From a virus, in IMG/VR virus record IMGVR_UViG_3300032293_001441, positions 1 to 64,000 of that record: DNA of 64,000 nt; one strand, written 5' to 3'. The notes below the pieces were generated by a model. The model did not search any database. It was not told the origin of the DNA and saw nothing but the letters and a program-made list of their open reading frames with translations. Below, in pieces: positions 8,022-49,923 of the stretch (position 1 is its first letter; every line of letters starts with the position of its first letter). Made by a program: the position numbers and the translations under genes.

Positions 8022-11000
8022 TTATGTGTCAAAACGAACAACAATGTTAAGTGGCCAATCAATTAGATTTTTGACCGGTCTTCCCAATTTACCAACCGCC
8101 ACCAGTTCGTTTCCTTGATATAATCCGATTGTTGTTATAAATGGAGCCAAATACGAGCCTGTAGGATCATACGACGAACTATATTGATATTCCAAGAAGT
8201 ATGGACTTACCTTTACATTATCTTTTCGGCAATACACATTCAAATATTCTTTAATTTCTTTTACGTATTTGCGTGTAGAATTTTCATTTGTCAGTAAATC
8301 TAAACGTTCTGGCACAAGTCGATCAAAATAATACAGTGAAAGTATGTTTCCGTCGTTTAGATTTATCTTTCCATCACCATCAACATCCAGCAATCCAGTG
8401 TTTACCAAATTTTCTTGTATATAATCAAATGCAGTTTTGGTAAATGCATTAAATGAAGAACTTGTCAAATAAGCGGCCTCGTCACTTTCAAACAAAAGTA
8501 CGTCTTCAGATTCAAGTTGTAATATGTCACTATTCCACCAACTATAATCGTTGAGCGTATCCTGTTCTAAAACAAGTCCATTGTCATCAAATACGAATTC
8601 CTCAAAAAATTTTCTTTTCTGTAAATAACGCATTATCAAATCAACATCAAGAAAATCAAATATTCCATCTTGATTTACATCGAACAACAATGAACTTTGT
8701 ACAAGCGAAGTTGGATTTGTGCTATAATTAAACTCTCCCGGTCTGATTGAAACTAAGTGTTCGTGTTCGTATATTGTATGCGATCCTTGATAACTAAGAT
8801 CAAACCCACGAGAACCTGTACCAGTAAATATATTGTAATAATTTGATGCCGTGTTTGTTAATACAAAATAACCATTTTTGTAAAATATATTTCCGATCAA
8901 TGGGCTAGTTTCATATTTGTTTATTGGATATACAAAAACCGATCCGGAGTAATTAGCCGGAAAGCCGGAAAATATTTGTATATTTTGATCGTATATTGAC
9001 GCCGTGGCGGATGATGTTGCAAAATTTACCAACGGAGCACCAACTGCCAAAAAGTCCGACGACACACTCACCGAATAACCATATAAGTTTGCTGGGCTAT
9101 TTTTATCTTTGTTTATTTTCGTATTACCAGTAAATTCCCATTTATCCAGAATATCGCTATAATTATACACTGTTACTCTACCCAAAACCCCGTTTGGATC
9201 TTCGGAAGAAGTGGATTCGTATTCATAATCTTCCAAAACAAATTCATCGGATACATAATCAACATTTCTTCCAGATTTATCGGCCCACGACGATACTGCC
9301 GCAAAGTTTCCTTCGACTGAAACAGACGACCCAAATAGCCTATTATTTGTGGAATATCTTCTATTTCCAAATGTTTTATATACTTTATAAAAACTCGAAG
9401 TCCCGCATAGCGTGGTATATCTGTAAAAATAAGCAGATCCTAATATGTCTGGATTTCCGGCATACGTAGAATATGGAATGAATGCCTTGTCTCTGATACA
9501 TCCCACCAACACAGTCGGCCAACTTATACATACGGATTTACCAAACCCATCAGATGTAATTTCAGCCGAAGTAACATCCGTCGCATACAATGGAGAAGAC
9601 ATATCTAAATCTCCATACGTAGAATCTTTTCTAAGAATTTTTATTTCGGACCAAGAGGCAGTTGGACAATCGCCTATAGATGCGGAATAAAATGATGCGG
9701 TAAATACAGATGCATATCCTTCACCGCTTTTATTTGTTCCAACAACAATGCTACCCGAATCGACAGAAACCGACCATCCAAAATTATCTCCTTCAGACCA
9801 TACACTTGACGTTATAAAAGACTCTTGAACCCAAGTATAGTTTCCAACTATATAATACGGATACTCACCGGCACCAGAGCCCGTCACAATCGTAACAAAA
9901 TTGCAAGATCCGGTTTCGGTAGAATATATTTTTTTGCGATATACATACGCTCCACCTTTACTACCACTCACTCCAGGAGAGCCGACAACGAGTAAATCGT
10001 TATCCAAACTCACAGAATAACCGAATTTATCGTTGTTTGTATTTCCCGTAAGAACTTCGATTATTCCCCAATTATCTATACCGCCTTTGTTTTTATCGTA
10101 AACATAAACAAATCCTGGATACGATCCACTCGTATAGCACAACGATCCGCTTATATTAGATAACGTCGTTACACACACCGACCCAGTCGGAGATCCTATT
10201 GCCAAAAAATCATCTTTCACTGACACCGAATAACCGAAACTATCTTCTAAATAAGAAGAACTGAGTAATGATTGCTCAGTCATTAAGAAATTATTATTTT
10301 CTATAGAAATCAACAAAGAACTATCAGATGAAAATTCTCTTGCCAACCCATTCTGTGTAAATGGACAATAAAACTTTTTCATCAATCTGTGAGTGCCGGT
10401 AGAATCGTCGTATTTAAACAATGCTGCATATCCCTGCCTTGCTGTGGACAAACTGTACTGATCCATGCTAGACCCAACTGCGATATATTTGAACCAAGAA
10501 CTTACCGATTCTCCGAAATGTTCATTCTCCGGTTGAAAATAATTTCTGGAATAAGAATCGTCAAAACTCCAAGTGAGAGAAGATTCTTCAAACAACACAT
10601 TTTTTCCCGCGTTTTTATATTCAGTGGCTTGTTGCAGCGAGAGATAAGTAACGGAACCATTACTCGAAGTAATATAAAACTTTATTGACCCTGTTTCATA
10701 ATATGGCCGAGCCATTAAGTTTTTTACTCCGCCCAACATATTGTACGAAGAAAAATGAGATCCACTTATAAACAAGTTTGTTGCACCATCGTCGTAAATA
10801 TCATACGTTTGATCGACGTTTGAATTATCTACTATATGAACTGTATTTGGTCGTACTTTGTCTCCAAATGCATTATGATTTAGTGCCAATGTTACAACCC
10901 TATCGTTAATAATTCGCACCTCTTTTTGTCCAGTACTAAAATCTCCACCATATTTTTCAACTCCAAACAACTGATATTGGTTTCCATTGCCATAAAACAT

Positions 11001-11261
11001 AGAATCCGTAAGGCTGTATATGTTTCTTGCATATTTTCCGGATTGATTGATTGGCTCCAACGAGGCAGAATAATATGGACTGCCAGATGGATAAAAAATC
11101 GATGATATTTTCTTACCTTCGTTTATCTCACAAAACTGATTGTAATATGTGCTATATCCATATGCATCAACAGAAGACGAATCGATACTTTGAACTTTCC
11201 AGTTCTTGAACGTATTGAACGGCCTTATTGTTATATCCCCTGCGGAGAACTGCTTTATCAT
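8022..11261 (-). CDS. Virion protein with FG-GAP beta-propeller and two dockerin/EF-hand-like calcium loops
   Basis: A 1079-residue protein. Between about residues 245 and 790 there are seven FG-GAP-type repeats, each with an F/Y-G-x-S-V core followed by a hydrophobic VG-x segment (DSFGYSVSVKDDFLAIGS, DKFGYSVSLDNDLLVVGS, DNFGWSVSV, RLFGSSVSV, NLYGYSVSV). Seven repeats are what a complete seven-bladed propeller needs. Two dockerin-like calcium loops follow: DVNQDGIFDFLDVD (~860) and DVDGDGKINLNDG (~958). The last ~35 residues (ITTIGLY...LVAVGKL) match the C-terminus of the next gene upstream, probably a shared virion assembly domain. A structural role is inferred from context. Confidence 0.8.
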   Translation of the reverse strand: MIKQFSAGDITIRPFNTFKNWKVQSIDSSSVDAYGYSTYYNQFCEINEGKKISSIFYPSGSPYYSASLEPINQSGKYARNIYSLTDSMFYGNGNQYQLFGVEKYGGDFSTGQKEVRIINDRVVTLALNHNAFGDKVRPNTVHIVDNSNVDQTYDIYDDGATNLFISGSHFSSYNMLGGVKNLMARPYYETGSIKFYITSSNGSVTYLSLQQATEYKNAGKNVLFEESSLTWSFDDSYSRNYFQPENEHFGESVSSWFKYIAVGSSMDQYSLSTARQGYAALFKYDDSTGTHRLMKKFYCPFTQNGLAREFSSDSSLLISIENNNFLMTEQSLLSSSYLEDSFGYSVSVKDDFLAIGSPTGSVCVTTLSNISGSLCYTSGSYPGFVYVYDKNKGGIDNWGIIEVLTGNTNNDKFGYSVSLDNDLLVVGSPGVSGSKGGAYVYRKKIYSTETGSCNFVTIVTGSGAGEYPYYIVGNYTWVQESFITSSVWSEGDNFGWSVSVDSGSIVVGTNKSGEGYASVFTASFYSASIGDCPTASWSEIKILRKDSTYGDLDMSSPLYATDVTSAEITSDGFGKSVCISWPTVLVGCIRDKAFIPYSTYAGNPDILGSAYFYRYTTLCGTSSFYKVYKTFGNRRYSTNNRLFGSSVSVEGNFAAVSSWADKSGRNVDYVSDEFVLEDYEYESTSSEDPNGVLGRVTVYNYSDILDKWEFTGNTKINKDKNSPANLYGYSVSVSSDFLAVGAPLVNFATSSATASIYDQNIQIFSGFPANYSGSVFVYPINKYETSPLIGNIFYKNGYFVLTNTASNYYNIFTGTGSRGFDLSYQGSHTIYEHEHLVSIRPGEFNYSTNPTSLVQSSLLFDVNQDGIFDFLDVDLIMRYLQKRKFFEEFVFDDNGLVLEQDTLNDYSWWNSDILQLESEDVLLFESDEAAYLTSSSFNAFTKTAFDYIQENLVNTGLLDVDGDGKINLNDGNILSLYYFDRLVPERLDLLTNENSTRKYVKEIKEYLNVYCRKDNVKVSPYFLEYQYSSSYDPTGSYLAPFITTIGLYQGNELVAVGKLGRPVKNLIDWPLNIVVRFDT

Positions 11262-11303: not shown

Positions 11304-12395
11304 TTATATATCTATCTTGATTTTTATAAGGCACTCGTTAGTAAAGTCTTTTAGCAATGGCTGACTCAACTTTGCGACAGCAACAAGATCATTTGTTTCG
11401 TTATACAGTCCCACAGTGGTAATGTATACTTTTGGATTTGTATAAAAATCGCTGAATCTCAACTTTCCTACATCCTGTGGATTTGATGGTGCTTCTTCCG
11501 AAGAAATTACAAATGTTGGATTATTTGAATAATTATAGTCTTGATTTTTTACACGAACGAAAAAGTGTCTTGCGGCCACGTACTCAGTTGCTCTTGCAAG
11601 CATAGGGGACGTTAGTGCTCCAAGTTTTATAGATTGGAACAACAAGTTTTGCATTTTTGCAAATTGACCATTCCACAAAGAACTTGATGGATTGTTTATT
11701 GGGAACCCATTCACAGTACCGATTAATTGACTTATCTTTGTTGGGTTTAGTACCACCATACCCAGATCTGGATACATAGTTCCTATTCCCTCATATCCAG
11801 TAGACGCGGCACCTCCCGACAATGTCCCGCGAATAAGATTGTATCTCTTTCCACCAGATTCCGCCGTTGCTTTTGGGTTGTATCTTGAATCGTCGATCAG
11901 AGTGGCAGTACCAAGAGATCCGCTTAACGTTATTTGAAATTGGCCGGGATCAAGTCTGTCTTTATATTTTGCTGAACGGAATGCTATGACGTATATATCA
12001 TCGGAATCTACTAACGCACTTCCGGTTTGGAATGTAAACTTCGTGTCTGCTGGAGTAAGTATGAGATTTCTGTATTGATTATATATGGCTTGCGTTGGGA
12101 ATATCAAACTTCCGTTCGCAGAACTTGTATCATAATTTGAACTACCAGATCCTGCATAATGTCCATAAGTCAAGGAAAAGTATATATCAGCATTTGATAT
12201 ATTCGACCCCGTATCATATACATTTGTATAATACAACCCATTAAGTGGTTCAAGTGCAGAAGACGACGCTATTGTTTGCGCGCTACTGGTATAAAACTGT
12301 TCCCAACTTGCCGTGCCATCGCTCCACATACCGGTGGAAACTGGCTGTGTTCTTCCCGCGACTATATCAGATGATTCAAATTGCTTAAAGATCAT
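11304..12395 (-). CDS. Phage structural protein sharing its C-terminal domain with the FG-GAP protein
   Basis: A 363-residue Ser/Thr/Asn-rich protein without a signal peptide. Its opening (MIFKQFESSDIV) resembles that of the 1079-residue FG-GAP protein (MIKQFSAGDIT). Its end (ITTVGLY, DLVAVAKLSQP) matches that protein's end. The pair therefore look like paralogues that differ by the large insertion. Proteins with this ending occur in structural blocks of T4-like aquatic phages, so I assign a baseplate or tail role by context. It is separated from the next gene upstream by only 11 nt. Confidence 0.7.
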   Translation of the reverse strand: MIFKQFESSDIVAGRTQPVSTGMWSDGTASWEQFYTSSAQTIASSSALEPLNGLYYTNVYDTGSNISNADIYFSLTYGHYAGSGSSNYDTSSANGSLIFPTQAIYNQYRNLILTPADTKFTFQTGSALVDSDDIYVIAFRSAKYKDRLDPGQFQITLSGSLGTATLIDDSRYNPKATAESGGKRYNLIRGTLSGGAASTGYEGIGTMYPDLGMVVLNPTKISQLIGTVNGFPINNPSSSLWNGQFAKMQNLLFQSIKLGALTSPMLARATEYVAARHFFVRVKNQDYNYSNNPTFVISSEEAPSNPQDVGKLRFSDFYTNPKVYITTVGLYNETNDLVAVAKLSQPLLKDFTNECLIKIKIDI

Positions 12396-12406
12396 ATATT
12401 AAATTT

Positions 12407-13036
12407 TTACGTTTTTACGCGAACCGTCACCGGTATAGTTATAGATCCTCCGCTTTCGTTACCTACCACCGTTAGGTTTGTCACTGTCGTGGTAGTAAGG
12501 GCGGAATTTGGAACAAATCTAAATCTGAGCCCCAACGCAACTTGTGCGGTTGTGGATGATACATCTCCAATAAATGTCGGTATAGTTGATGTACTCGTTA
12601 CTTGTAATTGTTCTCCTATGATAGTACCAACGTTTTTATTAGCCAAAACGGCAGTATATCCAAGAGTTGTATTGTATACTGGGTTCGTGCTTGGTACAAT
12701 AACGACTTCGCCCTTATAATCTTTATCAACGTCGATGGAACTTTGCCCGAGAGATATAATAGGTATAGATTCTACGCCCGAAGGTAGTGTGACTAATTTA
12801 TATTTTAGTGCCTGCGTCTCATCCGTAAATGCTTCAAATACTGGAGTATTACGAATTGCCAAGTCATAGTACGCAGAACCCTGTGGGTGATTGGGTTGAT
12901 AAAGGCGATAATCGATCTCATCGTCCGACAGCGCATAAGATGTAATATTTAGGCCACCTTTGGCCGCAAGTAGTTCTCTGCCTTTTTTCGTGAGAACCGC
13001 ATCTACAGTGATAGTTTCGTTATTGATGTACGCCAT
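12407..13036 (-). CDS. Phage structural protein (unknown family)
   Basis: A 209-residue protein starting MAYINNETITVDAVLTKKGR. The segment VDAVLTKKGRELLA with an adjacent ALSDDEIDY resembles openings of structural proteins in tail blocks of aquatic myophages, but I cannot name the family. It is beta-rich after residue 100. It lies between two virion genes in one operon and has a TATTTATT variant 15 nt upstream of the ATG. Confidence 0.7.
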   Translation of the reverse strand: MAYINNETITVDAVLTKKGRELLAAKGGLNITSYALSDDEIDYRLYQPNHPQGSAYYDLAIRNTPVFEAFTDETQALKYKLVTLPSGVESIPIISLGQSSIDVDKDYKGEVVIVPSTNPVYNTTLGYTAVLANKNVGTIIGEQLQVTSTSTIPTFIGDVSSTTAQVALGLRFRFVPNSALTTTTVTNLTVVGNESGGSITIPVTVRVKT

Positions 13037-19371: not shown

Positions 19372-21327
19372 TTATGCTACTCTGCCTACTATATCTTTAG
19401 TTGGAAAACGTACTTCAAACACCGATGGATCTATGGATGGATATATAACATTATCTACTGTGGCCTTTTCGATGTCATATTCATACTGAGAATAGTCGCC
19501 ATCTTTTAGTGTAAGATTTTTTACACGCAACTGAGTTACGGACTGAACGCCATCTACCTTGGCGATTTCCAGTTCCAATCTGCTAAGATTGATTGGCTGA
19601 CAGAACTTTACATTGTTTATGTCAAAATATTGCTGTACTAGTGTTAAGCAATTAGCCAAAACTTCACGCTTATTATAGTTTTTATAAACAATAATGCTAA
19701 AATCTACACCAATGTTAATAACATATCCATCCAAAATGTTAATACTGTCTGTCAGCATTCTATACTGGTTTAAATAGTTTTTTAGATTGGTGCGTATTGC
19801 TTCGTTTGTGGGAATCAATCGCTGGCTGTTATCATAACACAGAACATATAAGTTAATAGCAAATGGATTATTTTTGTCTGGGTCTACTCTATTTACTGTA
19901 CCGGGCGACAAACTTCCAGTTTGTATAGGAGAAGGGTTGGCCTGTATATTAGCCATATCCAACTGAGTATCCGTGACGGCATATACCTTTGCAATAGAAC
20001 CATACTTTGCTGGCATCGCGTGCGTTCTTACTTCATAATCGCTTTGGGTTACTGCACGATTTTGAGCAGCAAAATATGCAAGTGCATTATTTCGGATTTC
20101 GTCATTAGTTTCCGCAGCCTTTCCTCCAGTTGCCGGTGTTGGATTATTTACCCGAACCGAGCGGCGAACTAAATTTGTTAAATTTAATTCCAACAACCCA
20201 AGTTCTGTCAAATCTCCGAAAAATTCAACGGAACTTACATTTTTTATTGAATTTGCATTTACATTACTTTCTACGCCGCCACCAACTACATATCTTACAG
20301 TCAATGTTGTGTTTGATGGAGCCTGCCCAAATGCTTTGGATGATAGAAAATTTGATGGATCGTATGCAATATTTTCTGCTCTGAACGTGGTGGGTTTATT
20401 TACTGTGAATGCGTTAGGTACAATCAACTCGTCGTCTTTTATGCTAGTACCAGAACCAAATTCTAAGAATGTATTATTTTCGGCATCCACTCCCGTGACA
20501 AATCGCTTTGATGTACGCAAATATCTCAACAAAAATGGAGTAGTATCTCGATGAGCAGACAGCGTTATGTTGTTTTTGTAGATGTTTTCGTAATCTATTG
20601 GAACCAAGTCTTGTGCCAAATAATCAGTCTCATACCATCTATTACCGTCCGAATCATATACGTCTAAAACTTCTATAACATTTGTATCGTCTAAATATAA
20701 TTTTAAAAATGGAACAGGATCTGAAACTGAAATATTTTTGGTTATAATCTGGCCCGAAAACGCATCTACGGTCTTTTTTAAAACAAAAAACTCTGGCTGG
20801 CCCGCCGCGTTTCTTTGAAATACAGAAATTTCCAGTGGATCGTTTTTTGTGTCCACTGTAAAATCGACCGGAGCATTTGTAATAAATGCTACGTTTGTAT
20901 CACTGGTGGTTGCCATTCCTGGTTTTATTATCTGTGCATAATTTAAATCTGGGACCATTTCTCCCACATCATTCATTTTTGACGGAACTAATTGATAAAC
21001 ATCCAATTTAGTGACCGAAGGAGTGGTCGTTTTTGCTTTATATCCAACCGACTTTGCCGCGTCTATGATATTTTTTCTTTCTTCTGAATTTACTAGCATT
21101 GATTCTTTAAATTGATAATCTATGTAGTAAGATAGAACGTCTCCTACGTATGCAACCATTTCCATAAACATCATGCCGGTAGAAGCATCACTAAAATCTC
21201 TGTAAGTATTTGGATAATATGTCTTTGCAAAATCTATTAAAGACTGCTTTAATTGCGAAAAATCTTTATTTAGATACTTTATATCTTTCTTTTCTGGTTT
21301 GAATGATTTTGGTGTATCTAATATCAT
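19372..21327 (-). CDS. Baseplate wedge protein, gp6/J-like
   Basis: A 651-residue protein whose first 110 residues match the conserved opening of T4 gp6-like and J-like wedge proteins: DFSQLKQSLIDFAKTYYPN, then DASTGMMFMEMVAYVGDVLSYYID and NIIDAAKSVGYKA. In T4, gp6 dimers join neighbouring wedges into the baseplate ring. The central TNDEIRNNALAYFAAQNRAVT and a C-terminal VDGVQSVTQLRVKN are also typical of the family. It overlaps the gp25-like gene by 4 nt, the usual gene order in contractile tail clusters. Confidence 0.92.
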   Translation of the reverse strand: MILDTPKSFKPEKKDIKYLNKDFSQLKQSLIDFAKTYYPNTYRDFSDASTGMMFMEMVAYVGDVLSYYIDYQFKESMLVNSEERKNIIDAAKSVGYKAKTTTPSVTKLDVYQLVPSKMNDVGEMVPDLNYAQIIKPGMATTSDTNVAFITNAPVDFTVDTKNDPLEISVFQRNAAGQPEFFVLKKTVDAFSGQIITKNISVSDPVPFLKLYLDDTNVIEVLDVYDSDGNRWYETDYLAQDLVPIDYENIYKNNITLSAHRDTTPFLLRYLRTSKRFVTGVDAENNTFLEFGSGTSIKDDELIVPNAFTVNKPTTFRAENIAYDPSNFLSSKAFGQAPSNTTLTVRYVVGGGVESNVNANSIKNVSSVEFFGDLTELGLLELNLTNLVRRSVRVNNPTPATGGKAAETNDEIRNNALAYFAAQNRAVTQSDYEVRTHAMPAKYGSIAKVYAVTDTQLDMANIQANPSPIQTGSLSPGTVNRVDPDKNNPFAINLYVLCYDNSQRLIPTNEAIRTNLKNYLNQYRMLTDSINILDGYVINIGVDFSIIVYKNYNKREVLANCLTLVQQYFDINNVKFCQPINLSRLELEIAKVDGVQSVTQLRVKNLTLKDGDYSQYEYDIEKATVDNVIYPSIDPSVFEVRFPTKDIVGRVA

Positions 21328-21734
21328 ATATTTCCGGCGGTTACGTTGACTTCCAGGATCTGCGTTTCCATCTCACCAATACTCGGTACAGTATACAATA
21401 CCTTGACATATATTCTATATTTGTCATTATGTTCTGTAGTATTTGTGCTAACTTGTACACTGTTGATGTTCACGTATGGCATCCACCGAGTAACATCTCT
21501 CCGTATAGTATTTTCTATTATTGGAGAAATTTCTTCGGTATAATTTTCAAATAATACACTCCATAGTCCAGAACCAAACTCCGGATTTCTTCTTCGTTCT
21601 CCCTTTTTTGTTCTGAATAATAAATTTAAATTTGATTTTATTTGTTCTAGTATACTATAACTCTGATTAAAATAGCCCTGTGGCCCATGTGTTATGGGCA
21701 AAGTTATACCGTAAGGCTGTGTTAATGTTGCCAT
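21324..21734 (-). CDS. Baseplate wedge protein, gp25-like
   Basis: A 136-residue protein of the GPW/gp25 family. Key pieces are SILEQIKSNLNLLFRTKKGER, NPEFGSGLWSVLFE (the conserved loop that binds the gp6-type partner), then IENTIRRDVTRWMPYVNI. T4 gp25 forms the inner wedge core and helps start sheath assembly. Length is normal for the family. It overlaps the gp6-like gene by 4 nt and lies 6 nt from the gene before it. Confidence 0.93.
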   Translation of the reverse strand: MATLTQPYGITLPITHGPQGYFNQSYSILEQIKSNLNLLFRTKKGERRRNPEFGSGLWSVLFENYTEEISPIIENTIRRDVTRWMPYVNINSVQVSTNTTEHNDKYRIYVKVLYTVPSIGEMETQILEVNVTAGNI

Positions 21735-28000: not shown

Positions 28001-28159
28001 TTATTCTTCGTCTTCCTCTTCTTCATCTTCGTCGGGATCATATCCAAGTTCTTCTTTGATGATGCCCAACGCATCTTCGACTGAGGGCCAACTGCGGCTT
28101 TCTAGTGCGTATTCTAATAGTTCTTTTACTTCTTCTAGGTTATCTGGGTCAATATTCAT
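28001..28159 (-). CDS. Short acidic protein (52 residues)
   Basis: A 52-residue protein starting MNIDPDNLEEVKELLEYALE and ending in an Asp/Glu run (DPDEDEEEEDEE). Its ATG overlaps the deformylase stop codon (ATGA at 28156-28159), which argues for translational coupling and for a real gene. No family recognised; strongly acidic small phage proteins can be DNA mimics or protein-binding factors, but nothing here shows which. Confidence 0.75.
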   Translation of the reverse strand: MNIDPDNLEEVKELLEYALESRSWPSVEDALGIIKEELGYDPDEDEEEEDEE

Positions 28160-28773
28160 AGTATTTTCCATCCTTGGTCAACGAGTTCCAATGCCTTCTT
28201 GTATTTTATATATTGTGTTTCACCATTTTTTTCCACAACAACCTTATCATTTCTGCCGTGTTTTACCTTTTTTTCTACCGGCTTGATGAACTTGACGCCA
28301 GGATCAATCATCAGTCTGCCATTCAGATGGTCGATTTCATGCTGAACGCAGATTGTTTCTAATATACCAACATCGTCATATACGCTCTTTTCTGTTGGCG
28401 GATTTGTATCTGGACCAAATGGGATGGGGTTGGCGTGGTTGAGAGTATTGACGGTTACTTTCAACTTACGCATCGTATTACAACTCTTGCCCGGCAAACT
28501 TAGGCAACCTTCAAGATAAATGATATTTTCATTACTAACTTCTGTTATAACAGGATTCATCAACACAACTGGCGGCTGATCTTTTCTGGCTCTAATAACA
28601 GAAACACTTTTTGATATTCCTATTTGATTAGCAGATAGTCCAACTCCACCGTGAGGCAAACTATCTAAAGTTTCTATAAGCTTGTTTGCTATTTCTTGAC
28701 CCTCTTCAATAGAAGATACAGGTGTTGTTGGCTTATGTAGAAAATCTTTATCCTTGACTATTTTATAACTCAT
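28156..28773 (-). CDS. def: Peptide deformylase
   Basis: A 205-residue deformylase with all three conserved motifs: GVGLSANQIG (~44-53), EGCLSLPG (C90) and HEIDH (145-149). The cysteine and two histidines bind the metal, and the glutamate is catalytic. It removes the formyl group from nascent proteins; phage copies are best known from aquatic T4-like phages. I start at the ATG 28771-28773 (MSYKIVKDKD), not at an in-frame GTG 30 nt upstream, because the promoter at 28805-28832 would start transcription at about 28798. A 10-bp hairpin lies in the leader just before the ATG. Confidence 0.93.
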   Translation of the reverse strand: MSYKIVKDKDFLHKPTTPVSSIEEGQEIANKLIETLDSLPHGGVGLSANQIGISKSVSVIRARKDQPPVVLMNPVITEVSNENIIYLEGCLSLPGKSCNTMRKLKVTVNTLNHANPIPFGPDTNPPTEKSVYDDVGILETICVQHEIDHLNGRLMIDPGVKFIKPVEKKVKHGRNDKVVVEKNGETQYIKYKKALELVDQGWKIL

Positions 28774-28775
28774 AC

Positions 28776-28806
28776 TATGTGAATTTTTTGTTTTACAATT
28801 CACATA
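28776..28806 (-). promoter_or_regulatory. Leader hairpin before deformylase
   Basis: Arms TATGTGAATT and AATTCACATA are perfect 10-bp complements with an 11-nt loop, ending 2 nt before the ATG. The element overlaps the -10 box and probable start of transcription, so it could be a DNA operator or an RNA structure that limits translation. Confidence 0.5.
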
Positions 28807-30416: not shown

Positions 30417-32642
30417 TTATGGACCATAACGTATGATGATTCTTACATTACTTGGTGCCGAAATACCTGTAACATTAACAAGTGCTGAACTACTTTCCGT
30501 TGAACTGGTCATTCCATCAAAGGTACGTGTGGCGACAACTTTGTATGTTCCACCAGTATCTATTACGACTGGCGATACGGTGTATGTCGATAATGTAGCA
30601 CCAGATATAGCCACATTATTTCTATACCATTGATATGATATTGTACCTGCTCCAGAATCTGTAACAGGCGGGGCAGGCGTTGCGGACACGCCGCTTACAT
30701 CCTGAAATCCAGTCGTTCCTCCATTAATGAGCGTACTAAATGATAGTGGTGTTAATGTACCGTTGGCTGTGTTTACTGTATACCACTGACCATTGTCAAA
30801 GGATTGACCATACAACGTTGAACCGGCTGGACCGAAGGTGATTTGAAGTCTGGCTATTGCTGGAGAACCAACTGTGCCTATATTGGTGGCAGATATAGTA
30901 CCACTTAACGGACCAGATGGTAGAGTCAGATTATAAAACATAGAACCGTTGGAAGTAGTGGCATATAATGTACCATTACTAGTAATGGCTATGTCTCCAA
31001 TATAATTGTTGCCTGTTGTAGGTATACCGCCCGTGAGCGTAGCAGACGAAGTGCCATTAGAAATCATTGTAGGGGTTCCTGATCCGTCATATTGTAATGC
31101 GACTCGCACCAGCATATGTGTACCCGGCATAATATACCAATAAGCATTATTCCAATATGCTCCGTTGTCTGGTCGGCTGGTGGTCAATTGCCCTAGATTG
31201 ACTGGTGTAGAATTGGCAGATTGGTTCCAATACCACAGAGACGCCAGGCCACTTCCACTCGGATTAGGTGCCGCAAAAAATACTTGACCTCGCGTAGTAT
31301 CAAACGCTATTCCGTTTATTGCATTTGTTGATGTAGCACCTACAAGAGTAGACACATCTCGCACAGCCCTCTTTGTTCCAGTATCGCCGATTTCATAAAT
31401 ATTGTTGTCTGTACCAACAGTATAATAATACACCGATACTGATGCGAAGGTTGACAATGTAAGTGTATTTCCAAACTCAACACTTGTAGCAACAGGCTGA
31501 ACGGTAAAGATAGGTGCCTTTAATGTTCTAATAACGTTTACTGTTGCTGTATTGCTGTCTGTAAAACTGGATACACCATCTATAGTACTGGTTGCTCTAA
31601 GTTTATACACACCAGAGTCTGCGCTGGCAGCGGCACTCACAGTATATGATGTAGATGTTGCTCCTGTTATAATAACATCATCTTTGTACCATTGATATGT
31701 TGGAGTTGGTGTGCCAGTAGCCAACCCAGATAATGTAAATGATTGATTTAGATCAATGGTCACGGAGGATGGTTGAGCAGTAAATACTGGTGCCGCAAGA
31801 GTTCTAACTACGGTTACTGTTACTATATTACTATCAACTGAACTGGATGCTCCGTTTAGTGTATTGGTCGCAACAACCTTATAATCGCCGCCATTGGCAC
31901 TAACAGCAGAACTTACGGTATATGATGTAGATGTTGCTCCAGTTATAGCGACGTTGTCTTTATACCATTGGTATGTTGGAGTTGGAGTGCCAGTCGCTAA
32001 TGCCGATAGTGTAAATGACTGTGTAAGATTTACTGTTGCGGCGACGGGTTGCGTAGTAAATGTGGGCGGCACCAAAACTTCTATGACAGTAACTGCCACT
32101 GCATTACTGTCCGTAGACACCACTGTTCCGCTAACAGTATTGCTTGCTGATACTTTGTATGTGCCCGCGTCAGCAAGAACTGCCGATGATACTGTGTATG
32201 TAGCAGATGTTGCACCTGATATAGCAACATTATTTTTAAACCATTGATATGTTGGTGGAGAGTCGCCCGTTGCAAGAGATGATAGTGTAAAAGATTGGCC
32301 GACAGATGCGTTAGTAGCAACTGGTTGTAGTGTAAAAACCGGCGGATTGACCACACTCAAAGTTGCAATATTTGAAAGACTACTTCCCAACGAGTTACTA
32401 ACTTCTACGGTATATGCGGCAGCATCCGATATTGTAACATTCGCTAACACATACGATATAGATGTTGCACCGGCAATATTCGTTCCCCCTTTTTTCCACT
32501 GGTATGTAAACGGGGCTGTTCCGCTGGCGGTAACATCAAAGGTGACAGTCTGACCAACTTTGGCAACCGGACTAACATCTTGAGCATATGCCATACTGCA
32601 TAATGCAAGTATATAAAAAAGTATCTTGATATAGTTCTTCAT
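30417..32642 (-). CDS. Secreted multi-domain Ig-like protein with an inserted propeller-like domain
   Basis: A 741-residue protein. Residues 1-20 are a signal peptide (MKNYIKILFYILALCSMAYA) with a likely signal peptidase site. Four Ig-like modules follow (QWKKGGTNIAGAT, QWFKNNVAISGAT, QWYKDNVAITGAT, QWYKDDVIITGAT), each with the W-x-K core and a D-x-G-x-Y/T-K end. The fifth Ig begins at ~371 but is interrupted at ~400-650 by a beta-propeller-like region (DNNIYEIGD, GIAFDTTRGQVFFAA, GTLYATTSNGSMF), then completed by QWYRNNVAISGAT. Such Ig proteins occur on bacterial surfaces; phage Ig domains usually sit on virion proteins without a signal peptide. A lifestyle or surface role is possible. Confidence 0.82.
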   Translation of the reverse strand: MKNYIKILFYILALCSMAYAQDVSPVAKVGQTVTFDVTASGTAPFTYQWKKGGTNIAGATSISYVLANVTISDAAAYTVEVSNSLGSSLSNIATLSVVNPPVFTLQPVATNASVGQSFTLSSLATGDSPPTYQWFKNNVAISGATSATYTVSSAVLADAGTYKVSASNTVSGTVVSTDSNAVAVTVIEVLVPPTFTTQPVAATVNLTQSFTLSALATGTPTPTYQWYKDNVAITGATSTSYTVSSAVSANGGDYKVVATNTLNGASSSVDSNIVTVTVVRTLAAPVFTAQPSSVTIDLNQSFTLSGLATGTPTPTYQWYKDDVIITGATSTSYTVSAAASADSGVYKLRATSTIDGVSSFTDSNTATVNVIRTLKAPIFTVQPVATSVEFGNTLTLSTFASVSVYYYTVGTDNNIYEIGDTGTKRAVRDVSTLVGATSTNAINGIAFDTTRGQVFFAAPNPSGSGLASLWYWNQSANSTPVNLGQLTTSRPDNGAYWNNAYWYIMPGTHMLVRVALQYDGSGTPTMISNGTSSATLTGGIPTTGNNYIGDIAITSNGTLYATTSNGSMFYNLTLPSGPLSGTISATNIGTVGSPAIARLQITFGPAGSTLYGQSFDNGQWYTVNTANGTLTPLSFSTLINGGTTGFQDVSGVSATPAPPVTDSGAGTISYQWYRNNVAISGATLSTYTVSPVVIDTGGTYKVVATRTFDGMTSSTESSSALVNVTGISAPSNVRIIIRYGP

Positions 32643-32822: not shown

Positions 32823-33275
32823 TTACAACAATTTGACTTTTTGTGGTTTTGCTTCCTCAAGTTTGACACGAGGAAGCGTGACCTTTAATGTGCCATGTTG
32901 GAAATACGCCTTGATCTTGGTCTTGTCAATACCTTCACCAACGCTGAACGAGCGAGTAAAACTAGAACGCTTGATTTCCTTGTAGATATAGCGTCCTTTG
33001 GCTTCATTTACCGATTCCGGGACTTGCTTCTTACCACCCTTGATAACAAGAGTATCGCCCTCTAATTCAACGGAAACGTCTTCCTTGCTCAATCCAGCAA
33101 GATCTGCTTCCAATTCGTATTTATCGCTGTATTCAACAACATCAACTTTTGGATAGCTAGTTTTGCTATATGTTCCGGTATAAGGAGTTATACCGAATCC
33201 GTTGAAGACATCGTCGAATAGACGATCAAATGGGGTGAGAAACTCATCCCGTGTATATCTGCTTAGTGTACTCAT
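32823..33275 (-). CDS. hsp20: Small heat shock protein (Hsp20 family)
   Basis: A 150-residue alpha-crystallin-domain chaperone. Features: KVDVVEYSDKYELEADLAGL, the DVSVELEGDTLVIKG strand, YKEIKRSSFTRSFSVGEGID, and the conserved end HGTLKVTLPR. An I/V-x-I/V-like C-terminal tail (VKLL) follows. I start at the ATG 33273-33275 (MSTLSRYTRDEF) with AAAGGA upstream, because the 28 extra residues of the longer frame do not resemble the family. Hsp20 is common in aquatic T4-like phages and is thought to help virion protein folding. No clear promoter was found in its leader. Confidence 0.93.
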   Translation of the reverse strand: MSTLSRYTRDEFLTPFDRLFDDVFNGFGITPYTGTYSKTSYPKVDVVEYSDKYELEADLAGLSKEDVSVELEGDTLVIKGGKKQVPESVNEAKGRYIYKEIKRSSFTRSFSVGEGIDKTKIKAYFQHGTLKVTLPRVKLEEAKPQKVKLL

Positions 33276-33380
33276 ATGTTTGTATCCTTTGTTTATATCG
33301 GCCCCATTATGGGCACCGACGGTACATATATGCAAACTACGTACCAACTGTGTTGTCACACCATTTACCTATGAAGACAC

Positions 33381-35862: not shown

Positions 35863-36468
35863 TTATTCTTTTTTCATACAAACCCATGCTACATTTTCAA
35901 ACTGTTCTTTCATACAAGAAACTAGTCCGAAAGAATTTATAGAATCTTGTATATCAGAATCTTGTATTTCCATCCAGTTCCATATCTTATCTCGTATATT
36001 CGTTTCAAAATATTCCGAGTTTCTTGCATAGTCGTGAGCCATAATAATGTCTCCCCGTTTCAAAAATCTGGATAATAACTTAAATTCGTTTTTTTTACTA
36101 CCACCATCACATAGTACAATAGTAGTTCCGCTCGATTCTATGTATTTTTTTATTTTTTCTGGGTCTAACAATGCGTCGTATGCGTTATTAAATAGAGACT
36201 CGGTATATTTGTTTATTTTTTTTCCATCATTTATATGATGAGAAAGAAATCCATAATCATGTATGTCGTAAGTATCAATCGTTGTATTATATAACCCAAC
36301 CTGATCTAGAATGTCTCTCAACAGTAAAGTTAGTCCACCGTGGAACGTTCCAATTTCCAAAACTCTTGTCGGTGAAGTTTTTTCAAATAATTCTATGAAT
36401 GGTAGGTGTACATCCGATCTCTGAGATGTTGCCAATCCTTTATAAATAAAATGTCCATCGATGCTCAT
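35863..36468 (-). CDS. Class I SAM methyltransferase-like protein (CmcI-type)
   Basis: A 201-residue protein with a Rossmann SAM-binding loop RVLEIGTFHGGLTLLL (~34-49), a downstream acidic residue (DTYDIHDYG), VLCDGGSKKNEF and GDIIMAHDYA. This arrangement fits the cephalosporin-hydroxylase (CmcI)-type methyltransferase family, whose members often modify sugars in glycan clusters. Its first residues overlap the last codon of the next upstream gene. Substrate unknown; methylation of a fibre glycan is inferred from context. Confidence 0.75.
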   Translation of the reverse strand: MSIDGHFIYKGLATSQRSDVHLPFIELFEKTSPTRVLEIGTFHGGLTLLLRDILDQVGLYNTTIDTYDIHDYGFLSHHINDGKKINKYTESLFNNAYDALLDPEKIKKYIESSGTTIVLCDGGSKKNEFKLLSRFLKRGDIIMAHDYARNSEYFETNIRDKIWNWMEIQDSDIQDSINSFGLVSCMKEQFENVAWVCMKKE

Positions 36469-37205
36469 ATAGTGTTTATTAAGTTTAAAGAAAAACTCGA
36501 GTTATCATGTATTAGATAAGGCTCGGTGTCAAATTTAGTAATTATTTTATTTTTTATTTTTTTATAATATGTTTCATCCAAAAATCCAGTCGAAAAAAAA
36601 TACTCACATGTGTGGTCTTTTATTAATTTATTTACGTACAAGTCGTAGTATTGCCAGACGCCTTGATCGTCCCAAAAATCAATTTCTTTTGTTAAACATA
36701 TATTTTCCAATTCATCTAAAATAGATACCAATGTAGACGTTTTTGAAACAAAAGCGCCAGAATTTAGGTATTTAAAATCTATGTTTTCTAATTTATTTTT
36801 TTTAATATCCCAAGATTCTACGGTCTCTAAATAAGGCCAACAGTTTTTTTCGGTGGAAATAATAAAATCGGTGTTATTGTCAATCAATCGTTCCATCATA
36901 TTGCGATAACTTCTGCAAAATTTTGTATCGCTATAATCAATGTGACATATATATTCATATTTTCCTATTAAATTATTTTTTATAAATTTATTAATAAGAA
37001 AGATTTTGCTGTATACAAGATCTTTTCTTTTACTAAGACCTATATTTGGAATAATTTTAGTATTACTTGGTGATATATCCCTTGAGAAATTTACAAATAT
37101 ATCTTCGCTGGAACAGTCTGCGTTAAATTTTATTTTCAATTCCTCTTTCGTGGGTTCTCTACCCCCTTCGGAATAATATGTAGTCACTAAACAACTTGGT
37201 TTCAT
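36465..37205 (-). CDS. PLOD-like glycosyltransferase A
   Basis: A 246-residue protein. It shows the pattern of the GT domain of eukaryotic procollagen lysyl hydroxylase/glucosyltransferase (PLOD) and its phage/viral relatives: KYEYICHIDYSDTKF (D-x-D-like), KYLNSGAFVSKTSTLVSIL and WDDQGVWQYY (a conserved acid-Gln pair). It overlaps both neighbours by 4 nt. The nearest known enzymes add glucose to hydroxylysine-linked galactose; that chemistry is not claimed here. Confidence 0.72.
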   Translation of the reverse strand: MKPSCLVTTYYSEGGREPTKEELKIKFNADCSSEDIFVNFSRDISPSNTKIIPNIGLSKRKDLVYSKIFLINKFIKNNLIGKYEYICHIDYSDTKFCRSYRNMMERLIDNNTDFIISTEKNCWPYLETVESWDIKKNKLENIDFKYLNSGAFVSKTSTLVSILDELENICLTKEIDFWDDQGVWQYYDLYVNKLIKDHTCEYFFSTGFLDETYYKKIKNKIITKFDTEPYLIHDNSSFSLNLINTI

Positions 37206-37906
37206 TTTAATAATTCAAATTTTTCTATAAATTTTGGACTACCGTAATTCCAACCGTTGTCGTGAACAAACATGGGAAAATTACTTTTTGAGAACCCATC
37301 ATAACTTCTAGAATATGTGCACAAAAATAATTCATTATTTTTGTCCAATATAATTTTTGGGCCATGGTTTGATAGGTAGTGATATGTATACACCCCCTGA
37401 TCTCCACCAAAAGTTTTCAAGTTAAGAGGTAGTATATTTTTTATAATAGATTTGAACAATGATATGTACCAATCCCTTTTGCCTACCGACAATCCTCCAT
37501 TTAAATAATGTCGCATTTTATTGTCGTTCTCGGAATAATTTACGGTCCAATCTGGACAATTCCACGGATATCTGTGGGCTTCCGAGGAAAATAAAATATT
37601 ATCTGGTGAATTTATGTCGTTTATATTTCCTAAACAAACCACGTCATTTGTATCTGATATAACATAATAATCGTCGTCTAGAAACTTGAACTTATCCAAA
37701 GATAAAAATATTCTATATAAAATAAATTCATATTGGTAGTCAAATCTCCGATGAAATTCTTCTTCCAGTGTTTTAAAATTATTTCTATTAAAATGAATGT
37801 TTATAAAATTCTCGGGGGAATTATTTTTTATAAACGATTTGTATAATGAACTGTTTGATAGATCTATACGATCTTCGTATGACCAAGTTATACTTAATAT
37901 TTTCAT
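37202..37906 (-). CDS. PLOD-like glycosyltransferase B
   Basis: A 234-residue protein of the same type as the next gene downstream. Key features: DDDYYVISDTNDVVCLGN (DxD metal site), YLNGGLSVGKRDWYI, GGDQGVYTYHYL, and a terminal FVHDNGWNYG. The two neighbouring genes are probably diverged duplicates. They overlap by 4 nt, as does the GT25 gene upstream. The conserved aspartates argue for activity. Confidence 0.77.
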   Translation of the reverse strand: MKILSITWSYEDRIDLSNSSLYKSFIKNNSPENFINIHFNRNNFKTLEEEFHRRFDYQYEFILYRIFLSLDKFKFLDDDYYVISDTNDVVCLGNINDINSPDNILFSSEAHRYPWNCPDWTVNYSENDNKMRHYLNGGLSVGKRDWYISLFKSIIKNILPLNLKTFGGDQGVYTYHYLSNHGPKIILDKNNELFLCTYSRSYDGFSKSNFPMFVHDNGWNYGSPKFIEKFELLK

Positions 37907-38613
37907 GTATTATATTTTTCCGGGTGATGGCCGCATATCCAATTTTCCAAATTAGTTTCTACTCTAGTCAAATCGGAATAAGAATTATATTGTGTACTAA
38001 ATGAATATTTATAGCACAAACTTTTAAATACCGTGGGAAATTTATTCAACGGTTGATCTTCTTTATAAAAATTTTCTGGATTTTTTGCCATCTGTTCTCC
38101 GTACATAAATAAACAAAGCAACTCGTCCGGATAATGTGTCGAGTATGTATTATCAAATTTTTCTATTAAAGTCTTACACAATTCTTTTTTGATCAAATAA
38201 GATTGTGCATAACTTGTTGACGAAGTTTGGTAGCAATTATTTTTATAATATATTGGTTGTCTTCTATTGACACATCCAAGCCAAAACAAATCCCAATCCG
38301 TCGAATGAATGTCTTGAAATATTTGCACTCTATCTTTGAATAGTGGCTCCAAAAATTTACAATCATCTTCCAACACTAATAGAGTTTCTGCGGAAGAATT
38401 TAAAAATTTTTTATAAATTTCGAACGTGCTTCTCAACAAATTTACCTGCGGAGTACCGGTGTCTTCGTTTGCTTTGTGCCTAATTACGCCGTTGATTGAA
38501 AATTCTCTTAAATTTGATAGAATTTTTTCATTTCTATCGGTACGTCTATCCAAATTTATATAGAACCCGATATCGGCGATTTTTGTAGTATCTCCAATAC
38601 TTATTCCACTCAT
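37903..38613 (-). CDS. Glycosyltransferase family 25 protein
   Basis: A 236-residue protein with the GT25 opening FYINLDRRTDRNEKI (~17-31) and the metal site LVLEDDCKFLEP (~78-90). GT25 includes bacterial LPS galactosyltransferases and the eukaryotic collagen galactosyltransferases. A typical YLIKKELCKTLIEKF follows. The operon position, between a GlcNAc-transferase-like gene and the PLOD-like pair, with 4-nt overlaps on both sides, suggests stepwise assembly of one glycan. Confidence 0.85.
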   Translation of the reverse strand: MSGISIGDTTKIADIGFYINLDRRTDRNEKILSNLREFSINGVIRHKANEDTGTPQVNLLRSTFEIYKKFLNSSAETLLVLEDDCKFLEPLFKDRVQIFQDIHSTDWDLFWLGCVNRRQPIYYKNNCYQTSSTSYAQSYLIKKELCKTLIEKFDNTYSTHYPDELLCLFMYGEQMAKNPENFYKEDQPLNKFPTVFKSLCYKYSFSTQYNSYSDLTRVETNLENWICGHHPEKYNT

Positions 38614-39914
38614 AAATTTCCAGTGATTCTTTCTCCCCAGCCTTTAGATACACTATGTGGCCACACGACCCAGTGGTGTGGTTTTTCGGCAGTATTAAAT
38701 GTTCTCCAAAGTTTTATGTATTTATCTCCACTCGGATCTTTTGCTTCGCCTAATAGTCGCTTAATTTCGTTAATATCCGCATCCTGTCTATATATCAAAG
38801 AATTATCTTCACGCTCGAATGCAACACACCAAAAATTATAATCGTCGAGTCTAAAATTGTTAGTCTGAAGATCTATACAGTGTTTAAATATTTGTAGAAA
38901 TGAATCTTCCCATTCTTTCTCAGTCTTGTATTTGTGATATTTGTTGGGAGGATATGCTTTGTCTATTGTTTCCTGTTGAACTGCACGTTTTCCGAAATGA
39001 AGCCCTGCGTATTTTTCGTAATCTTTTAGAGTTCTTACTTTTCCAAATCCATATGGCCCCCATTTTATGATATCGTGTTTTTCTCCGTCCATAGAAAATA
39101 GTATACGATTCCTGCGATGGCACAAATGATTCCGCTCCCCCCAGTCCTTCTTATCTGGTATTTTATTGGTACTACTCGACCCATGATCGTCCCAATGCTT
39201 GGTTCTCCCCTTGCGAGTATATTCGTGCCAAGCAACTAACCGATGTGGATGGAACAAATCGTACCCCCAAGTAAATGCTCGAACCGCGATACTTATTTCT
39301 TCCCCGTGGAAATAATATTCTGGGTCATGTGGCACTTCTTTACAGAATTTTCCGGTAGTAAATGCAAAATGTGCAGAATAAAATCTTGCAGGAACGGGGG
39401 CAGACAATTCTCTCCAATTATCGATAGATGCAGGTAAAAAGAATACAGCACCTTCTGGAATAAATCTGTCGAAATCCATTCTCCAAGGAGTTTGCACTCT
39501 TGCTTCTGGATCTTTATCTGGATCAAATGATGGAATATAACCAGTAAGCAATGGCTTCTTGTGTCCCATTTTTTGAAGTTGCTTATACATTCCAATTATT
39601 ACGTCGTCCCAATCTTTTACGAATCTGTGGTGTGAATCTAATTGCAATGTATATTCTTCACCATCATATCGCTGCTGTATTTGATTGCGTGCCCAACACG
39701 CACCTTTGCTTTCCATGTGAGGAATATCAATAATTTTTACGTTTTTTAACTTTTTAAGTTCATCGATATTTTCATCCGGCGCGTGCTGCCAAGCAATACA
39801 AAACACGAGATTTTCCGGATGCTTCGCATTTGCTATGCAGTCCTTTATTGTGGGAACTAATTGAGGGTCGCGATATGCGGCAATTTGTATGAAGATTTTT
39901 CCTTTGGAACTCAT
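38610..39914 (-). CDS. GlcNAc transferase-like glycosyltransferase (Skp1 GnT1 type)
   Basis: A 434-residue protein matching the GlcNAc family that includes Dictyostelium Skp1 N-acetylglucosaminyltransferase: IFIQIAAYRDPQLVPTIKDC near the start, GACWARNQIQQRYDGEEYTL, then DSHHRFVKDWDD (D-x-H metal site), AVRAFTWGYDLFHPHRLVAWH and a histidine-rich YTRKGRTKHWDDHG. The Skp1 enzyme adds GlcNAc to hydroxyproline; the phage substrate is unknown. It is the first gene of the six-gene operon, 51 nt downstream of a Thr/Pro-rich fibre gene, and has a 16-bp palindrome in its leader. Confidence 0.85.
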   Translation of the reverse strand: MSSKGKIFIQIAAYRDPQLVPTIKDCIANAKHPENLVFCIAWQHAPDENIDELKKLKNVKIIDIPHMESKGACWARNQIQQRYDGEEYTLQLDSHHRFVKDWDDVIIGMYKQLQKMGHKKPLLTGYIPSFDPDKDPEARVQTPWRMDFDRFIPEGAVFFLPASIDNWRELSAPVPARFYSAHFAFTTGKFCKEVPHDPEYYFHGEEISIAVRAFTWGYDLFHPHRLVAWHEYTRKGRTKHWDDHGSSSTNKIPDKKDWGERNHLCHRRNRILFSMDGEKHDIIKWGPYGFGKVRTLKDYEKYAGLHFGKRAVQQETIDKAYPPNKYHKYKTEKEWEDSFLQIFKHCIDLQTNNFRLDDYNFWCVAFEREDNSLIYRQDADINEIKRLLGEAKDPSGDKYIKLWRTFNTAEKPHHWVVWPHSVSKGWGERITGNL

Positions 39915-39965: not shown

Positions 39966-41171
39966 TTATCCACTACATGACGTATTTAATAGTCCGCCTC
40001 CAGAAAATACTTCTGTACCACAACCAATAACAATTTGAGTATTATAAAATTCCGGACCGGTCGTTCCACTCTGTGTTATTGTATTTCCTGCCGAATTTTT
40101 ATAAGTAACACTCCAATTTCCTACACTGTTCACATTTGCATATACCACTTTCAATGGTATGAAATATGCAGTTGCGGATCTATTATCCGTCATATAAATA
40201 TTTGTATTTGCCGATGTAGTTGATCCATCGGAGGGATTGGATATTCCTCCAAAAACCCAATAACTAAATACATTATTCGCACTCGGTGTCGCAGTAAGAT
40301 TTACATTAGTCCCATAAGGATATGTATTTGATGTCGGAGAAACTGTACCGGATCCGTTTGTAGAAGTTAATAACGTCTTTGTTTGTATAGAAAAACTCGA
40401 TGTCAACTTACAGTCGTTAATTGGCATTGTAAATTCGCCTTTACCAAAAATTCCCTCTAAATATTCCGTAGAACTATAAGTAAATCCCGGAATTGATACA
40501 GCATTAAATCCTGTGAAATTGTTTCCAGTGTTTGGTTCAGCGTATATTGTGACGGATGTTCCAGATTTTATATTGGAAATTCCTTCGGAATATGGTATTG
40601 TAATGCCATCCCCATCAATTTTTATTTTAAGTTCGAATGTATTTTTTGTTGGAGTAACCGTAACAGTTGGTGATGGCGAAGGAGTATTCGTTGGAGTCGG
40701 AGTTGGAGTTGAAGTTTCCGTAGGAGTTGCCGTAGGAGTTTGATACATCGAAGGCGTCGGAGACGGAGTCTCGGTAGGAGACGATGTTACAGTCGGAGTA
40801 TTAGTTTGTGTCGGCGTAATAGTAGGTGTTATCGTCGGTGTAAGTGTTGGTGTCGGTGTTGGTGTTCTGGTATATGAATCTCTTCCGCTCTTCGTTGGTG
40901 TGGGTGACGGAGTTCTGGTAGGGGTCAACGAAGTCGATGGTCCCACATTTCTGGTCACAATTGGGGTTCTTGTAGGAGTTATCGATGGCGTGATAGTATT
41001 TGTCGGAGATGGTGATGGTGGGATAATTGCTTTCCACCCGTGATTTAACGTGTCAACATGAGAACCGGTCTTAATGTATAATAACCCTTCATCGGTCTCG
41101 TTAGTTTCTCCGATTAACCCAAATACTTTTCCATTTGGATTTCCGTGACTGGGTACATGACTAGAAAACAT
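39966..41171 (-). CDS. Modular fibre protein: docking domain, Thr/Pro linker, InlB-like repeat tip
   Basis: A 401-residue protein. Residues ~10-50 (NPNGKVFGLIGETNETDEGL, LYIKTG, GWKAI) form an N-terminal module shared with the fibre proteins at 49072-49923 and 49931-50968. A ~130-residue Thr/Pro/Ser-rich linker follows (TPTPTPTLTPTITP). The C-terminal ~220 residues contain two divergent bacterial-repeat (InlB B-repeat-like) units ending GTVSPTSNTYPYGTNVNLTA, a beta-grasp type tip. It lies 51 nt upstream of the first glycosyltransferase operon. A virion fibre or decoration role is inferred. Confidence 0.75.
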   Translation of the reverse strand: MFSSHVPSHGNPNGKVFGLIGETNETDEGLLYIKTGSHVDTLNHGWKAIIPPSPSPTNTITPSITPTRTPIVTRNVGPSTSLTPTRTPSPTPTKSGRDSYTRTPTPTPTLTPTITPTITPTQTNTPTVTSSPTETPSPTPSMYQTPTATPTETSTPTPTPTNTPSPSPTVTVTPTKNTFELKIKIDGDGITIPYSEGISNIKSGTSVTIYAEPNTGNNFTGFNAVSIPGFTYSSTEYLEGIFGKGEFTMPINDCKLTSSFSIQTKTLLTSTNGSGTVSPTSNTYPYGTNVNLTATPSANNVFSYWVFGGISNPSDGSTTSANTNIYMTDNRSATAYFIPLKVVYANVNSVGNWSVTYKNSAGNTITQSGTTGPEFYNTQIVIGCGTEVFSGGGLLNTSCSG

Positions 41172-49071: not shown

Positions 49072-49923
49072 TTATTGTTGTCCTATATTCTCATTATTTT
49101 CGTTTCCTCCGCCTCCTCCTGTTCCAGGTGAGGTAGGTGCGCTCGTAGGCGCGTCAGTTGGTTCGTCCGTAGGCGCGTCAGTTGGCGCGTCAGTTGGTTC
49201 GTCCGTAGGCGCGTCCGTAGGCGCGTCCGTAGGCGCGTCCGTAGGCGCGTCCGTAGGCGCGTCAGTTGGTGCGGATGTCGGAGCGTCAGTTGGTGCGTCC
49301 GTAGGCGCAGACGTTGGTGCAGAAGTTGGTGCGTCTGTAGGTGCGGATGTTGGAGCGTCGGTTGGCGCGGACGTAGGCGCAGACGTTGGCGCGTCCGTAG
49401 GCGCAGACGTTGGCGCGTCCGTAGGCGCAGACGTTGGCGCGTCCGTAGGCGCAGACGTTGGCGCAGAAGTTGGTGCGGACGTTGGTGCAGAAGTTGGCGC
49501 ATCGGTCGGTCCGTCTGTAGGTTCGTCTGTAGGTTCGTCTGTAGGTCCGTCTGTAGGTCCGTCTGTAGGTCCGTCTGTAGGTTCGTCTGTAGGTTCATCG
49601 GTGGGCGGCGATGACGGACTTGGGGTAGGAGTTGGTGTACGAGTAGGAGTTACAGTCGGCGTTACTGTCCGAGTCGGCGTCGGGGTTGGAGTGTTGGAAG
49701 TTCCGGACGGAGTCGGAGTTACGGTCGGTGTAACGGTTTGTGTCAATGATGGGGTAACGGACGGAGTTGGTGGGGGTTCTGGTACTAACTCCTCCCATCC
49801 TACGTTGAGCATATCTGCTCCAACTTTTACATACAATTTTCCGTCGTCTGTACCAATTGCTGCACCAACTTGTCCAAAAATTTTTGATTCCGGATTTCTT
49901 CTATATGGAATGTGTTTCGGCAT
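49072..49923 (-). CDS. Modular fibre protein with Pro/Thr/Asp/Ala tetrapeptide repeats
   Basis: A 283-residue protein. Residues ~9-48 (NPESKIFGQVGAAIGTDDGK, LYVKVGADMLNVGWEEL) form the shared docking module. The rest is low complexity: Thr/Pro first (PTPTRTVTPTVTP), then more than thirty PTDx or PTSx tetrapeptides (EPTDGPTDAPTSAPTSAP), ending in a short Gly/Asn tail. The Thr/Ser density makes it an obvious candidate for O-glycosylation. It lies upstream of a glycosyltransferase operon and 7 nt downstream of its paralogue. A spacer, stalk or mucin-like shield is inferred. Confidence 0.72.
   Translation of the reverse strand: MPKHIPYRRNPESKIFGQVGAAIGTDDGKLYVKVGADMLNVGWEELVPEPPPTPSVTPSLTQTVTPTVTPTPSGTSNTPTPTPTRTVTPTVTPTRTPTPTPSPSSPPTDEPTDEPTDGPTDGPTDGPTDEPTDEPTDGPTDAPTSAPTSAPTSAPTSAPTDAPTSAPTDAPTSAPTDAPTSAPTSAPTDAPTSAPTDAPTSAPTSAPTDAPTDAPTSAPTDAPTDAPTDAPTDAPTDAPTDEPTDAPTDAPTDEPTDAPTSAPTSPGTGGGGGNENNENIGQQ
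49131..49600 (-). repeat. 12-bp tandem repeat array coding Pro-Thr-(Asp/Ser)-x tetrapeptides
   Basis: Roughly 470 nt of degenerate 12-bp units (for example gcgtccgtaggc and gcagacgttggc). The variations are mostly in-frame substitutions. The array lies inside the fibre gene at 49072-49923 and is likely to vary in length by slippage. Confidence 0.85.

Follow-up and report, generated by a model that had tools for sequence, protein, structure and literature searches.

A mosaic phage tail-block protein with a predicted integrin-type FG-GAP propeller and a split pair of dockerin-like calcium loops

Why would a gene in the tail block of a virus encode, in a single chain, seven FG-GAP units, two dockerin-like calcium loops and a phage-type C-terminal domain, as a first-pass annotation had claimed, and what might such a protein do? 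We address this question for a window of 64,000 nucleotides, the whole stretch analysed here, which comes from a virus record of 65,947 bases (IMGVR_UViG_3300032293_001441). The modules, their mosaic pattern, the synteny, and the loop residues with their conservation were computed from the sequences, and the propeller fold is a computed prediction. The reading that we favour, with a probability of roughly 0.6, is that of a baseplate-proximal tail protein that displays an exchangeable adhesion domain.

Module architecture and the FG-GAP propeller

The focal open reading frame has an ATG start and an intact frame, encodes 1079 residues and spans exactly 8022..11261 on the minus strand. The protein has no PHROG family and no tblastn match in the phage collection at an E-value of 1e-5, and its kinship to known phages was detected only via HMMs of its modules. 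The features of the protein are as follows:

8022..11261, minus strand: focal gene, a 1079-residue mosaic protein, putatively of the tail (ORF call, homologues)
10767..11261, minus strand: N module, residues 1-165, part of the scaffold (HMM matches to gp105 of Flavobacterium phage immuto, 3e-5, and to an ORF of the 484-kb uncultured phage LR756508, 6e-12)
8898..10754, minus strand: predicted integrin-type FG-GAP propeller, residues 170-788 (Pfam, motifs, predicted structure, PDB profile)
8694..8906, minus strand: M module, residues 786-856, part of the scaffold (HMM match in the 591-residue protein of Microcystis phage Mel-JY01; conservation); its first three residues overlap the aligned range of the propeller
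8646..8681, minus strand: putative calcium loop 1, DVNQDGIFDFLD, residues 861-872, followed by a helix (Pfam, pattern, model)
8397..8606, minus strand: segment between the calcium loops, residues 886-955
8352..8387, minus strand: putative calcium loop 2, DVDGDGKINLND, residues 959-970, followed by a helix (pattern, model, PDB profile)
8025..8174, minus strand: C module, residues 1030-1079, common to the scaffold family (HMM matches)

The M module holds the signature EFNYSTNP and the C module the signature TTIGLYxxxELVAVGKLGRPVK. Conservation is 0.87 in the C module, 0.78 in M and 0.66 in N, and is lowest, at 0.52, in the propeller span.

Pfam FG-GAP_2 (PF14312) matches the whole protein with an E-value of 1.3e-27 and 96.1 bits against a cut-off of 23, and six stretches each pass this cut-off alone; PF01839 (FG-GAP), unlike PF14312, has no match in the virus's own genome. 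Seven FGxSV-type motifs (residues 249, 342, 413, 494, 573, 643 and 727) recur at a spacing of ~70-95 residues, compared with a mean of 0.12 such motifs in shuffled copies. The claim of seven FG-GAP units in one chain is thus well founded. A search of the PDB with the family profile gives integrin alpha-4 (E-value 0.0015) and cellulosomal dockerin-containing proteins (E-value 0.004) as top matches. The AlphaFold2 model, built from an alignment of 24 sequences, has a mean pLDDT of 66, with the propeller blades mostly at 70-95 and the N and C modules at 30-50 in parts. Integrin alpha headpieces are the top matches of residues 170-788 in both Foldseek and VIA-align, with a Z-score of up to 32 over 352 residues at 3.4 Å. 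The first-pass annotation had made its reading depend on whether structure prediction would give a propeller, and the model does predict a seven-bladed propeller of the integrin type. The aligned range begins far ahead of the first FG motif and reaches the M module's start, as would be expected if strands from both ends closed the predicted propeller.

Several blades of integrin alpha carry DxDxDG calcium loops; in contrast, no such loop was found in the blades of the focal protein (residues 165-790), where each 1-2 loop has 2-3 residues, and therefore any calcium dependence should come from the dockerin-like pair. Length changes of the propeller among homologues concentrate in four loops (17-46, 12-26, 26-91 and 29-94 residues), three of which are of the 2-3 or 4-1 type; the remaining one, a 3-4 loop, faces the other side of the blades. 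The 2-3 and 4-1 loops form the ligand-binding face in integrins.

FG-GAP-type propellers in phage proteins are already known to annotators. They are present in proteins of the cyanophages S-TIM5, S-MbCM6 and S-SCSM2R and of Vibrio phage nt-1, several of which are annotated as virion structural, so the uniqueness implied at the outset was too strong. The similarity of these proteins to the focal protein is limited to the propeller, with the N and C modules not aligned, and Pfam finds no dockerin-like loops in the FG-GAP protein of S-SCSM2R, the one scanned. Bacterial genomes gave only distant propeller matches, in Acidobacteria, Bacteroidota and others. The open literature searched gave nothing directly relevant on FG-GAP or dockerin in phage tails, and we found in it no description of an FG-GAP propeller that shares an exchangeable, baseplate-linked scaffold with a split pair of dockerin-like loops.

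The scaffold family and its tail locus

Two scans of viral contigs recovered about 50 contigs with a relative of the focal protein at ~35-99% identity, the largest contig being of 297 kb; the most distant homologues (L021 and L067) are 34% identical and 1472-1473 residues long. In L021 (L021:6001-10416), a LysM domain, which binds peptidoglycan, is present between the two calcium loops, upstream of a conserved ESEDVLL segment. The N and C modules are also found in smaller proteins, viz., gp105 of immuto (YP_010114578.1; 357 residues) and a 304-residue ORF of LR756508, which, unlike the focal protein, have neither propeller nor calcium loops. The Mel-JY01 protein (WWT39517.1) shares the N, M and C modules and the locus with the focal protein, but its modules surround a LamG domain (Laminin_G_3, 3e-14) at the place of the propeller and no calcium loops were found in it; LamG occupies the same place in related viral contigs. 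Scans that started from these proteins recovered 47 loci with kinship to the Mel-JY01 protein and 140 stretches akin to immuto gp105. The phage-type C-terminal domain described earlier is real: among the fetched loci, 291 non-identical proteins carry the C module.

In a tree of the scaffold parts alone, the FG-GAP form is a single clade (support 99/96) and the form of 550-630 residues is another, and three changes in all suffice. The labels 'mid', 'long' and 'short' on this tree were set by length; LamG is confirmed by Pfam in three 'mid' proteins and matched more weakly by three 'long' ones. In this tree, read without a fixed root, the insert-free row of LR756508 has a very long branch, so that its placement beside the FG-GAP clade is unsure. 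Gain of the propeller by insertion would be a more natural reading than its loss.

The neighbourhood of the focal gene includes the following:

11304..12395, minus strand: neighbouring protein of ~363-364 residues, a paralogous scaffold with the same C module (blastp/HMM)
12407..13036, minus strand: 209-residue protein of the tail block (synteny, same position in relatives)
19372..21327, minus strand: gp6-like baseplate wedge subunit (PHROG 219, 3e-21; immuto baseplate wedge protein)
21324..21734, minus strand: gp25-like baseplate wedge subunit (PHROG 261, 2e-15)

The order of genes is wedge genes, 209-residue gene, scaffold paralogue, focal gene, RuvC-like gene, primase and SbcCD, with the wedge genes upstream of the focal gene and the last three downstream. 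Relatives as distant as L021 (~34% identity) keep this order, and its outline is also seen in immuto and Mel-JY01; homologues of the paralogue are found in immuto, Mel-JY01, RM378 and LR756508. Immuto gp105, like the focal protein, adjoins a scaffold paralogue (gp106) and is located downstream of baseplate-wedge genes, and in the corresponding block of immuto some genes carry tail fiber and tail spike annotations. With its N and C modules and its baseplate-linked locus, the focal protein belongs to an immuto-type tail scaffold family. At the level of sequence, the placement in the tail block made by the first-pass annotation is supported by the common scaffold modules and by a gene order that matches the baseplate regions of immuto and Mel-JY01.

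Other genes of the window, all on the minus strand, were noted alongside. A fibre-like gene start, open at the window edge (2-337), begins with RIQLKRDTAANW..., continues into Gly/Ser/Thr repeats and is directly downstream of the gene at 353-2578, which encodes a 741-residue protein with poly-glycine near its end and no Pfam or PHROG match, and which is conserved beside SbcCD in relatives. Three otherwise different proteins (39966-41171, 49072-49923 and 49931-50968) have in common an N-terminal segment of ~46 residues (blastp E-values down to 1e-12) followed by Pro/Thr-rich repeats. A glycosyltransferase (38610-39914; phrog_24687 at 3e-177) adjoins several smaller ORFs (35863-38613), and an Ig-like repeat protein with an apparent signal peptide (30417-32642) has Hoc-type head-decoration matches. 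Peptide deformylase and Hsp20 (28156-28803 and 32823-33359) are auxiliary genes of a large phage.

Possible roles of the exchangeable domain

Since LamG and LysM are present as alternative or added cargo, this family is most simply explained as a scaffold that displays adhesion domains. We propose that an ancestral scaffold of ~300-360 residues, consisting of the N, M and C modules and insert-free in immuto-like phages, would attach to the tail. The lineage of the window plausibly gained two inserts: an FG-GAP propeller between the N and M modules and, between M and C, a region that contains two dockerin-like EF loops. With its variable loops the propeller would contact the host, a surface protein or a polysaccharide being the probable ligand. 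Calcium binding would fold the two calcium loops, which would thereby make the stalk region beside the conserved C module stiffer or lock it. The protein is likely present in the virion, and binding of a host-surface ligand appears to be the best explanation for the propeller. Two points speak against this reading: one of the four variable loops faces away from the other three, and variation in the loops would likewise be tolerated by a propeller whose role is structural and not adhesive.

It is also conceivable, though unlikely, that the propeller is architectural, serving as a baseplate spacer or structural knob in which the EF loops are structural calcium sites, while another fibre gene recognises the host. 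The separate fibre-like gene just downstream (2-337) could fill the latter role, and phage tails contain beta-propellers with other roles; the term is frequent in a paper on how the tail of phage SU10 reorganises (PMC9509320). However, an insert that is swapped for LamG or absent at the same locus fits better with an accessory display domain than with an indispensable structural component, and the clustering of indels in loops also speaks against a purely architectural part. Quite improbable in our estimate is a protein that keeps the particle in mucus or aggregate polysaccharide and does not bind the infection receptor: LamG, LysM and FG-GAP are all common in extracellular adhesion and LamG fills the sister slots, but the gene is in the baseplate/tail block, away from the Hoc-type head-decoration gene. 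Display of an exchangeable adhesion domain near the baseplate remains our preferred reading.

The split dockerin-like calcium loops

Both 12-residue loops fit the strict dockerin/EF pattern: the residues that should hold calcium, at positions 1, 3, 5, 9 and 12, are acidic or amides. Matches to this pattern average 0.0026 in shuffles and two matches occur in none of 20,000; since shuffles rarely give either the FGxSV motifs or the calcium loops, these are not chance products of composition. In each of the 22 full-length homologues of the alignment the ligand positions of both loops are conserved (position 9 is serine or aspartate in a few), and two calcium loops in the chain, as first described, are hence retained. 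In the model, loop 2 and its helices have a pLDDT of 77-87, the region of loop 1 is of middling confidence and the segment between the loops is not resolved. Pfam Dockerin_1 (PF00404) matches the focal protein with an E-value of 0.017 and 15.7 bits, below the cut-off of 22.9, and among six homologues tested three are above the cut-off (L008, L012 and L021) and three below (L002, L013 and L015).

The focal protein shares with type I dockerins a pair of 12-residue calcium loops that each lead into a helix. It differs from them in layout, as the adjacent repeats of a ~60-70-residue module are not seen here: the loop starts (861 and 959) are 98 residues apart and 86 residues intervene. It also differs in that residues at loop positions 10-11, the cohesin-recognition pair in type I dockerins, vary among homologues. 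On these sequence features, the term dockerin is fair for each loop and not for the module.

A search for a cohesin-like partner, as had been suggested, was made in ten related records (up to 297 kb, possibly fragments) and gave only sub-threshold matches, with no cohesin above the cut-off. The weak matches are confined to the neighbouring gene of ~363-364 residues in three of the ten relatives, and when compared against all of Pfam they are at chance level (E-values 0.29-0.37). The predicted fold of this neighbour has no significant match in the PDB (best Z-score 3.9) and no cohesin fold was seen. Neither result supports the neighbour as a cohesin partner, a role further disfavoured because it is also conserved in phages without the FG-GAP form. 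Dockerins are matched by the loops both in Pfam and in the profile search of the PDB. Nevertheless, a true dockerin, whose two loops would bind a cohesin-like domain of the host or of a second virion protein, is very improbable given the split loops, with LysM between them in a homologue, the variable recognition residues and the want of a cohesin above the cut-off in the ten related records. In a wider form, calcium-dependent joining of virion parts, as the first-pass annotation proposed, may or may not apply.

A mechanical role of calcium in the stalk is the more plausible proposal. A bolder form of it, to which we give a low probability, is a calcium switch, in which calcium would join the two halves around the inserted segment or LysM and so dock or release the propeller arm, making adsorption calcium-dependent via a dockerin-derived joint. 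With this family it can be tested whether a propeller of the integrin type acts as a phage adhesin, and whether a calcium need in adsorption traces to the dockerin-like loops. The C-terminal TTIGLY...AVGKL module is a handle by which tail proteins so far without annotation, which number in the hundreds, can be labelled. A single tail scaffold that in related phages has an empty slot, or LamG or FG-GAP in it, is a natural record of large phages swapping whole adhesion domains.
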